Source of the DNA: an uncultured bacterium
Lineage (GTDB): Bacteria; Patescibacteriota; Minisyncoccia; Phycocordibacterales; UBA6065
Length of the DNA stretch: 37,907 bases
NCBI GenBank assembly: GCA_903842365.1
Contig: CAIMLU010000052.1
Span: forward strand, 1-37,907
Direction of reading: 5' to 3'
Shown here piece after piece: positions 34,542 through 37,185 of this stretch. The position numbers and the translations under genes were made by a program. How positions within the stretch are numbered: position 1 is the stretch's first letter; each line of letters starts with the position of its first letter. A model generated the notes under the pieces. It was not told the DNA's origin, did no database searches, and saw only the letters and a program-made list of their open reading frames with translations.

Positions 34542-35141
34542 ATGCACCCAAAAGAAGAACGATCGTTTGTAATGATTAAGCCTGATGGTATTCAACGTGG
34601 GCTTATTGGTGAAATCATTAAACGCATTGAACGAACAGGCCTCAAACTTGTCGGGCTTAAATTGGTGCTTGCCGACGAAAAAGTGTTGTGGGTTCATTAT
34701 AATAAAGACGAAGCATGGTTTGTCTCAAAGGGCGCAAAAATAGTTGAGAATAAAAAAGCAGCAGGATTACCTGTAACCAAAGAGGCGATTGAGTACGGTA
34801 AGGATATTATTCGTGGACTTATTCGATTTATGACTGCTGGGCCAGTTATTCAGATGGTGTGGGAGGGAAATCAGTCGGTCGCTATTATTAAAAAAATTGT
34901 CGGTGGGACAGAGCCTCTTACTTCGGATGTCGGGACCATTCGAGGTGATTTAACTGTTGATTCATACGCAATAACAGCAGTTGATGATCGTGCGGTTCGC
35001 AATCTCATTCACTGTTCAGATAATACCGAGGACGCTAGGCGTGAAATTGGTTTATGGTTCAAGGAAGACGAAATGATTGAGTATCGACTTGTTACCGAAC
35101 AAATACTCTATGATGTAAATCTTGATGGTATCTTGGAATAA
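34542..35141 (+). CDS. ndk: Nucleoside diphosphate kinase, long form
   Basis: A 199-residue enzyme moving the gamma phosphate between nucleotides. Seen: ERSFVMIKPDGIQRGLIGEI, MVWEGNQSV, GTIRGDL and the catalytic His in NLIHCSDN (family NIIHGSDS). It is ~55 residues longer than the common form because of an insertion around residues 55-85 (FVSKGAKIVENKKAAGLPVT) and a longer C-terminus. Such long forms occur in CPR and some archaea as I recall. A weak A/T hairpin (GCAAAA against TTTTGC near 35144-35175) follows the gene. Confidence 0.93.
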   Translation: MHPKEERSFVMIKPDGIQRGLIGEIIKRIERTGLKLVGLKLVLADEKVLWVHYNKDEAWFVSKGAKIVENKKAAGLPVTKEAIEYGKDIIRGLIRFMTAGPVIQMVWEGNQSVAIIKKIVGGTEPLTSDVGTIRGDLTVDSYAITAVDDRAVRNLIHCSDNTEDARREIGLWFKEDEMIEYRLVTEQILYDVNLDGILE

Positions 35142-35203
35142 ACTGCAAAACAGGGTTAGGAAGCCTTAATTTTGCACACGATTTTTTTCGGTGTTTATCT
35201 CCC

Positions 35204-35231
35204 TTGTGTCTTATAAAAGACGGTTTATAAT
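35204..35231 (+). promoter_or_regulatory. Promoter of the 6S-like RNA
   Basis: TTGTGT at 35204-35209, 16-bp spacer, TATAAT at 35226-35231. The expected start at 35238-35240 coincides with the first base of the closing stem of the RNA. Confidence 0.75.
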
Positions 35232-35237
35232 CAACTA

Positions 35238-35397
35238 TGGGTCGATGAAATGTTGACTCTATACATTTTTTTAGGGAGTTCTATATTTCTGCGTACCTTG
35301 GTATAGCAGCTGCGGACACCCACCTAGCACATCGCTAGGGACAACATTTCGTCGGCCTTTCGAAAGAGCACATCTGTAGAGACAGATGTGCCTTTTC
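35238..35397 (+). ncRNA. ssrS: Noncoding RNA with 6S RNA-like architecture
   Basis: A ~160-nt transcript from a clear promoter to a clear terminator, with no open frame. A perfect 16-bp closing stem joins 35240-35255 and 35342-35357 (two G-U pairs). Then a U-rich unpaired strand, an apical stem GGG-A-GUUC/GGAC-A-CCC (around 35274-35281 and 35314-35321) with CUGC/GCAG inside, and on the 3' side a small hairpin CCTAGC-ACATC-GCTAGG (near 35323-35339). A closing stem, a large central bubble with a 3' hairpin and an apical stem are the 6S RNA plan, in which the bubble mimics an open promoter and binds RNA polymerase. The sequence itself was not matched to a known 6S RNA, so the identity is inferred from structure. 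Confidence 0.6.
35368..35397 (+). terminator. Terminator of the 6S-like RNA
   Basis: GCACATCTGT, loop AGAG, ACAGATGTGC followed by CTTTTC: a 10-bp perfect stem. Confidence 0.85.
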
Positions 35398-35434
35398 GTT
35401 TCACTTCTCTATCTCTGATATACTATTGTCCATC

Positions 35435-35839
35435 ATGCTAAATAAGACCATCAATCTACTTGTTTTTTCTCTAACACTCACCGCAGTTCTTCATTTTTTA
35501 TTCCTACGTTTTGATTCGTATTATAGTTACTCATGGATTGATATTCCTGTTCATTTTCTTGGCGGCGTTGTCATTGCAAGTCTCTATTTCTGGCTTGCTT
35601 CCTTTGTGCCAAAACTGTCCCAGCCAACGTGGTCACGGATGCTTGCTGTTATTATGGTGGTGGGAATAGGCTGGGAGTTGTGGGAAGTTTTTGTAGGCGC
35701 TGCAGATATGTCTAAATTTGATTATGCTTCGGACACTCTGCAGGACATGATTAATGATACACTAGGGGCATTGGCGGTTTGGTATTGGTACGTGAATATA
35801 AGCAATAAACATAATTCAGAAACAGTATGTCAAAAGTAA
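35435..35839 (+). CDS. Small polytopic membrane protein
   Basis: A 134-residue protein with about four membrane segments. Polar motifs sit within or near them: DIPVHFLGG, GWELWEVF and SDTLQDMINDTLGA. These His, Glu and Asp positions resemble DUF2238/VanZ-type membrane proteins as I remember them; the function is unknown. TATACT at 35419-35424 lies 10 nt upstream of ATG 35435, so the leader is very short; TTG 35426 is an alternative start. It overlaps the next gene by 13 nt, which suggests coupling. Confidence 0.6.
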   Translation: MLNKTINLLVFSLTLTAVLHFLFLRFDSYYSYSWIDIPVHFLGGVVIASLYFWLASFVPKLSQPTWSRMLAVIMVVGIGWELWEVFVGAADMSKFDYASDTLQDMINDTLGALAVWYWYVNISNKHNSETVCQK

Positions 35840-37185
35840 CATTCCTTTCAGGTGTTGGGACCGCAACGGGCGCGAATTTTATGGTTGAGAAAAATGGTAA
35901 ACGCTTTCTTGTTGATTGTGGTTTAATCCAAGGTTCCGAGACTGCGTTTCGTGATAACCACGAACCTTTCAGTTTCAATCCTGATGAGGTTGATGTTCTT
36001 CTTGTCACCCATGCACACATGGATCACATTGGCCGCATTCCAAAGCTTGTTCGGGAGGGGTTTAGGGGTGTTATATATTCGACACCGCAGACGCGAGACT
36101 TATCAGCCGTTATGTTTGATGACGCTGTCGGTCTCATTGCCCGTGAATCAAAAGAAACAGGGAAGCCACCTCTTTATGAAGAGCAAGACGTTGCAAAGGC
36201 ATTATCGCTTTGGAGGACCCACGAGTATCATTCACCGTTTGAATTTATCCCTGGTCTTTCTGCTGAATTTTACGATTCCGGTCACATTCTTGGTTCGGCG
36301 ATGATTAAGGTTTCATCAGGTGAGAAAAATTTCCTCTTTACTGGTGATCTTGGGAATTCTCCATCACCACTTTTACCAGACACTGAAATTATTTCCGATG
36401 TAGATTACCTCATCACTGAAAGTGTTTACGGTGATCGAAATCATGGATCTAAAGATGAACGTGATGCTCATTTTTTAAGCGTGCTAAGAAAGGGAATAGC
36501 AAAGGGTGGTGTAATTCTTATTCCAGCATTTTCGATCGAGCGTACACAAGTTATTCTCTACAAACTCAATGATTTCATCGAGGGTGGATTGATAGCAAAA
36601 GTGCCTGTTTGTGTCGATTCTCCACTAGCATCGAAAGTAACAGCGATATATAAAAACAACACAGATCTTTTTAAGGAAGGTGTACGAAAAGATATTGCAG
36701 ACGGTGATGATATTTTCGCATTTCCCGGCCTTACATTTATCCGTACCATGGAAGAGTCGCGAGCACTCGATAACAATAATGGTGCAAAGATAATACTTGC
36801 CGGATCAGGCATGTCTATGGGGGGGAGGGTGGTGCGACATGAAAAAACATACCTCTCTAATCCGAACGCTACGGTTGTAATGGTCGGATATCAGGTCCCA
36901 GGAAGCCTTGGGCGCCATATAGAAGAGGGTGAGGGTGTTGTTGTGATTGAAGGCGAGCATGTGCGTATTCATGCGACTATTGAAAAGATTGATGGTTTTT
37001 CATCTCATAAAGATAGTGACCATATTGTCGAATTTATCTCACATATGAAGGATCGTGTAAAAAAAGTTTTTGTTGCCATGGGTGAACCAAAATCATCGAT
37101 ATTTCTCACACAACGCCTTCGTGGAGAATTGAGTATTGATGCCCTATACCCAGAGCGTGGATCATCAGTCGAGATTGATTTCTAA
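35827..37185 (+). CDS. Metallo-beta-lactamase/beta-CASP ribonuclease
   Basis: A 452-residue cytoplasmic nuclease of the RNA-processing beta-CASP group (Ysh1/CPSF-like). Metal motif HAHMDH (His62, His64, Asp66, His67), then the later His in DSGHILGSAM, Asp in FTGDLG, and the beta-CASP domain with PAFSIERTQ and GSGMSMGGR. A C-terminal SSHKDSDHI carries the last His motif. Likely an RNA endo- or exonuclease with two zinc ions. Its ATG lies 13 nt inside the upstream membrane protein gene. A bidirectional terminator separates it from the converging rplT. Confidence 0.88.
   Translation: MSKVTFLSGVGTATGANFMVEKNGKRFLVDCGLIQGSETAFRDNHEPFSFNPDEVDVLLVTHAHMDHIGRIPKLVREGFRGVIYSTPQTRDLSAVMFDDAVGLIARESKETGKPPLYEEQDVAKALSLWRTHEYHSPFEFIPGLSAEFYDSGHILGSAMIKVSSGEKNFLFTGDLGNSPSPLLPDTEIISDVDYLITESVYGDRNHGSKDERDAHFLSVLRKGIAKGGVILIPAFSIERTQVILYKLNDFIEGGLIAKVPVCVDSPLASKVTAIYKNNTDLFKEGVRKDIADGDDIFAFPGLTFIRTMEESRALDNNNGAKIILAGSGMSMGGRVVRHEKTYLSNPNATVVMVGYQVPGSLGRHIEEGEGVVVIEGEHVRIHATIEKIDGFSSHKDSDHIVEFISHMKDRVKKVFVAMGEPKSSIFLTQRLRGELSIDALYPERGSSVEIDF

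Follow-up and report, generated by a model that had tools for sequence, protein, structure and literature searches.

A probable compact 6S RNA gene without the terminal P1 helix in the order Phycocordibacterales of the Patescibacteria

6S RNA is a small RNA which mimics an open promoter and thereby blocks RNA polymerase. The Escherichia coli molecule (ssrS) comprises 183 nt, carries the terminal helix P1 and begins pRNA synthesis at U44. Patescibacteria have small genomes, and the throttling of transcription in such host-dependent cells is little understood; we found no paper on 6S RNA in CPR/Patescibacteria in the open-access literature. The Firmicute 6S RNAs (RF00013; Anaerosolibacter, Thermotalea and Clostridiales loci L105, L088 and L107) are about 180 nt long, with P1, an internal loop and a longer apical arm. 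Truncated variants of the Bacillus subtilis 6S-1 RNA (6S78 and 6S82cp) completed the cycle of binding, pRNA synthesis and release in vitro; when cut to the bubble and short arms, the RNA bound polymerase approximately ten-fold more weakly, and pRNA was made and release took place (PMC8876501). The Ms1 RNA of Actinobacteria has a 6S-like shape and binds polymerase, but its partner is the core enzyme (PMC9130861).

The locus presented here lies on a contig of 37,907 nt (CAIMLU010000052.1, assembly GCA_903842365.1, hereafter the window) from an uncultured member of the order Phycocordibacterales (hereafter the order), and very probably constitutes a 6S RNA (ssrS-type) gene of compact form without the terminal P1 helix. 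Its RNA shares with the Firmicute molecules the GGGAG...CACCCACCUAG...CUAGG core, P2, the apical arm and the central bubble with a small hairpin on its 3' side, but measures 120 nt and has one continuous closing stem and no P1. The E. coli RNA has the same overall plan, and its A43-U44 aligns with A35261-U35262 of the window via RF00013, whereas its core sequence has diverged.

The RNA body occupies positions 35239-35358 of the plus strand, to which all window coordinates refer, and was matched over its full length by both covariance models described below. Upstream, a promoter was read from the sequence at 35204-35231, with a weak -35 element (TTGTGT, 35204-35209), a 16-nt spacer and the -10 element TATAAT (35226-35231). 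Downstream, an intrinsic terminator extends over 35368-35400, in which a hairpin (35368-35391) is followed by CTTTTCGTTT. Seven nucleotides separate the -10 box from G35239, the first base of the closing stem, in agreement with the preliminary description of this DNA, which had placed the RNA start at that base and had stated that promoter, structured RNA and terminator fit together; all three were present in that order within 35204-35400. The interval given there, 35204-35397, does contain the structure (z-score of −6.25 for the entire interval upon shuffle folding), but 35204 belongs to the -35 box and is not the start of the RNA.

The closing stem consists of 17 uninterrupted pairs, 14 Watson-Crick and three G-U, between 35239-35255 and 35342-35358, with fold and covariation evidence for both strands; it corresponds to the 6S helix P2 plus a short extension, and its 5' strand is the predicted pRNA template. 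Described previously as a perfect stem of 16 bp, it does contain 16 pairs once the outermost G-U is subtracted, and is perfect only if wobbles are counted as pairs. The 5' side of the central bubble (18 nt, 35256-35273) was unpaired in the minimum-energy fold and aligned to the RF00013 bubble. The apical arm (35274-35321) has the base GGGAG...CACCC, with invariant GGG/CCC, and a covarying upper stem. The near-invariant core motif ACCCACCUAG (35318-35327) is common to the Rfam 6S consensus (CACCCACCU), and it runs into the hairpin CCUAGC/GCUAGG on the 3' side of the bubble (35323-35339), for which 97% of the alignment cells were paired and four of the six pairs showed compensatory change. Two linker bases complete the fold. 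Positions 35236-35360 folded at −47 kcal/mol (z-score of −6.1), and none of 200 dinucleotide shuffles folded as well. The antisense strand gave nearly as good a value (−6.0), as expected because the RNA is a near-palindromic rod; the plus strand was assigned based on the promoter, the terminator and the core motif. No open reading frame of at least 60 amino acids overlapped the RNA on either strand.

A BLAST search of 60 related genomes returned four relatives, and RF00013 added three further weak ones. In these eight RNAs, including that of the window, a G-rich stem started shortly after a -10-like box, and most of them ran into a terminator. The covariance model R1 was built from the eight RNAs and was later followed by a better model, R2. 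The window RNA scored 100 bits with R1 and 95.5 bits with R2, in both cases over its full length and as the only match in its genome. R1 matched 213 of 297 genomes of the order, again over the full length and nearly always in single copy, and R2 recovered nine of 20 order genomes that R1 had missed; in some near-complete genomes of the order no copy was detectable by R1 and then R2. The set of relatives was not circular, since a profile of the window RNA and its four BLAST relatives, made without RF00013 input, recovered the three loci found by RF00013 and most of the others. The named GTDB matches to the core pattern belonged mainly to Taylor-, Zambryski-, Yonath-, Vogel-, Nomura- and related Parcubacteria, and a plasmid search with the RNA of the closest relative gave no match. 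All 69 relatives examined had a -10 box (TANNNT) among the 17 nt that immediately precede the RNA, compared to 19% of control positions, and a crude detector identified a terminator right after the RNA in 44 of the 69, compared to 1.7% of control positions. Given that these signals are conserved in relatives, the RNA would form its own transcription unit, with a sigma-70-type promoter and a defined 3' end.

The genomic surroundings were highly regular within the order. In the window (34542-37185), the RNA follows ndk and precedes the genes for a small membrane-like protein, which matched no Pfam family, and a beta-CASP metallo-beta-lactamase nuclease; the whole set shares one strand. This arrangement is conserved among the 69 loci of the order, where ndk was located upstream in 59, the nuclease downstream in 59 and the small membrane protein downstream in 45, on one strand. 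Such tight synteny, together with a terminator that follows the RNA ahead of co-oriented genes, led us to consider seriously that the RNA may act in cis, as the leader (attenuator or riboswitch) of the operon encoding the membrane protein and the nuclease. The constant linkage to one downstream gene that characterizes such elements held in the order but failed elsewhere in the phylum, where 11 of 25 loci had a gene for tRNA-Pro or tRNA-Thr within 120 nt downstream of the 6S RNA. An RNA that keeps its form while its neighbours change is what would be expected of a trans-acting RNA gene, and the RNA carries the core of RF00013, which itself acts in trans. Furthermore, the downstream gene of the window is preceded by a -10-like element of its own (TATACT, beyond the terminator), and the closing stem and the terminator lack the overlap that would make an antiterminator. 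The leader explanation was set aside on account of the differing surroundings, and we regard it as improbable. Several features of the neighbourhood were noted in addition. Behind its stop codon, ndk has a hairpin (TGCAAAA...TTTTGCA) and a T-run (35142-35190), probably its terminator, by which the 6S gene would be insulated. The 11 tRNA-adjoining loci (L085, 1501-1719; L174, 2920-3117; L083, L169, L170, L177, L178, L179, L180, L182 and L184) had the tRNA gene on the same strand at a spacing of 5-80 nt; in these bacteria 6S RNA and tRNA may be co-transcribed, the 3' end of the 6S RNA being made by tRNA processing. RNase P RNA was located about 1 kb from the 6S RNA in five of 12 scanned loci elsewhere in the phylum, and in L034 the ribosomal protein L20 leader was matched below threshold at 1358-1481 on the minus strand (31.8 bits, cut-off 58.7), next to the 6S locus.

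The assignment to the 6S family was evaluated using Rfam. At its normal cut-off, the database yielded only 23S and 5S rRNA in the window and was silent over the RNA stretch. At loose thresholds, the best match was RF00013 (6S RNA) with 16.7 bits, below the gathering cut-off of 46.4 bits, which is a database threshold rather than a biological feature. The match was colinear, passing through P2, the bubble, GGGAG, the apical arm, CACCCACCU, the 3' hairpin and P2 again, so the core flanking the bubble and the hairpin on its 3' side were present as expected of the 6S family. No other RNA family matched; Ocean-VII, the sole further name at loose E-values, was dismissed as a chance match. A whole-genome search with RF00013 returned no match in the window's own genome, presumably due to the prefilter and the low score. 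Among 39 genomes of the order, the six best RF00013 matches all fell on the compact RNA. In 286 Patescibacteria genomes, RF00013 gave 25 matches (E ≤ 0.01), of which 24 were at the place found by R2, as read off the two match tables, and four, in relatives elsewhere in the phylum, exceeded the curated cut-off with 55.4-60.2 bits; R2 had matches in 118 of these genomes, so that the new models find 6S RNA where the Rfam cut-off fails. Conversely, R2, which was trained only on RNAs of the order, detected seven Rfam-certified 6S RNAs at the same place, six from Firmicutes (E-values down to 7.5e-10) and one in a MAG labelled Hyphomonadaceae; the certified loci had been chosen via the shared core pattern, which favours similar ones in this test. 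R2 gave no match to the E. coli 6S RNA.

These results bear on the explanation that the RNA is a structural look-alike, non-homologous to 6S RNA and binding core polymerase instead of the holoenzyme. The precedent is Ms1, which combines a 6S shape with binding to the core enzyme (PMC9130861), and shape alone is thus not decisive. Against a look-alike stand the sequence homology to RF00013, with some matches at the same RNA even exceeding the cut-off, and the detection of Firmicute 6S RNAs by R2; we consider such a look-alike slightly less probable still than the leader. Based on the RF00013 matches on the same RNA and the detection of certified 6S RNAs by R2, the RNA is a 6S homologue that shares descent with RF00013, and the 6S-like character proposed earlier extends beyond shape to the sequence core.

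The covariation support for the structure was strong. Across 71 aligned matches, 91.8% of cells were paired, and 36 of the 39 pairs showed compensatory changes; the covariation score was 0.607, whereas shuffling gave 0.22 and sliding the partners about 0.08. The later alignment omitted two of the 71 rows, whose matches were doubtful. Since the alignment had been fitted to most of the tested structure, two extra checks were made. Closing-stem pairs outside R1 (columns 4-263 and 6-261) were 93-96% paired with changes on both sides, and in a sequence-only alignment the helix pairs made up most of the leading covariation signals. A set of 25 RNAs taken from other parts of the phylum scored 0.767. 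The rod with a closing stem, a large central bubble and an apical arm was therefore backed by covariation, and fold, covariation and RF00013 alignment all bore out the 6S plan, with bubble, 3' hairpin and apical stem, recognized previously. A functionless cluster of chance hairpins and terminators, which might be suspected from the other hairpins after the end of ndk and from the capacity of intergenic DNA to fold by chance, was refuted by these covariation data, has the z-score of about −6, the order-wide conservation and the promoter in 69 of 69 relatives against it as well, and retains a negligible probability.

The two-part terminal stem typical of the Rfam model, P1 followed by an internal loop and P2, was not found in the RNAs of the order. 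This arrangement is not known to be essential to 6S RNA. The small size had been pointed out before; we add that it results largely from the missing P1 helix, which the earlier description had not recorded. The -10 box of 69 RNAs from the order ended a median of 7 nt before the start of the model, which puts the expected transcription start at P2; their flanks showed no extra complementarity (−7.0 kcal/mol versus −6.7 kcal/mol when shuffled). In contrast, for 25 RNAs from other parts of the phylum the median distance was 20 nt, and the flanks paired (−15.4 versus −8.3 kcal/mol) into the P1 helix known from ordinary 6S RNA. These P1-bearing RNAs (e.g., L085, L169 and L174) share the R2/RF00013 family, the core and the covarying stems with the window RNA, but the distance from their -10 box to P2 is about 20 nt, their flanks are complementary, and a tRNA gene often follows. 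The short spacing and unpaired flanks of the order, set against the P1 helix elsewhere, make it most likely that the order lost P1 while its relatives in the phylum kept it. A compact 6S RNA would plausibly function, as truncated B. subtilis 6S-1 RNA still works in vitro (PMC8876501). We lean somewhat, with little more than even confidence, towards the broader proposal that the order uses a naturally minimal 6S RNA, in which, after the loss of P1, transcription starts at the pRNA-template helix and polymerase control requires no more than the bubble, P2 and a short apical arm, encoded in a conserved locus beside the beta-CASP nuclease and ndk, whose product makes NTPs.

The predicted pRNA start of the window RNA is U35262, which would template an A; this U and E. 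coli U44 both align to RF00013 model position 45. The position was T in 77% of the 69 relatives, and the preceding A was found in 75%. The predicted pRNA reads 5'-AUAGAGUCAACAUU, with the initial bases AUAGAGUC. In the calculations, pRNA hybrids of 8-20 nt were more stable than the free fold; the gain was already at least about 6 kcal/mol at 8 nt and stayed so at greater lengths. For pRNAs of up to 16 nt, refolding produced no distinctive rearranged hairpin. The calculated thermodynamics are plausibly compatible with 6S release, albeit unspecific. As the 6S family does so, we infer that the window RNA binds the sigma-70 holoenzyme and templates pRNA. Transcribed from its own sigma-70-type promoter, from the first closing-stem base to its own terminator, the RNA would fold into a rod whose central bubble, by homology, mimics melted promoter DNA. 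Lodged in the active site, the rod would keep the housekeeping holoenzyme off promoters. When NTPs return, polymerase would copy the 5' bubble strand from U35262 toward the RNA 5' end into a short pRNA, which would unzip the closing stem and free the enzyme. The closeness to ndk invites the speculation that nucleotide supply is linked to 6S release; a minimal 6S locus of the proposed kind, if true, could tie both release and turnover to that supply.

That 6S RNA occurs in Patescibacteria was already discoverable, as a few members pass the Rfam cut-off and 6S RNA is of a known kind. As far as the open-access literature goes, the order-wide compact P1-less form, the covariation, the synteny and the size of the annotation gap are new. 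The compact RNA is conserved in hundreds of these ultra-small bacteria, and the usual threshold of the RNA database overlooks it. With a conserved 6S RNA, the Patescibacteria would possess a brake that acts on polymerase globally and is coupled to NTP supply. The P1-less form represents a natural experiment on which 6S parts are needed, matching the in vitro result with truncated B. subtilis 6S-1 RNA. A few genomes contained two matches; in one of them (G044), a second, diverged 6S-like match (L012, 1957-2077; 36 bits) was situated about 330 nt downstream of the first and was followed by a terminator-like hairpin.
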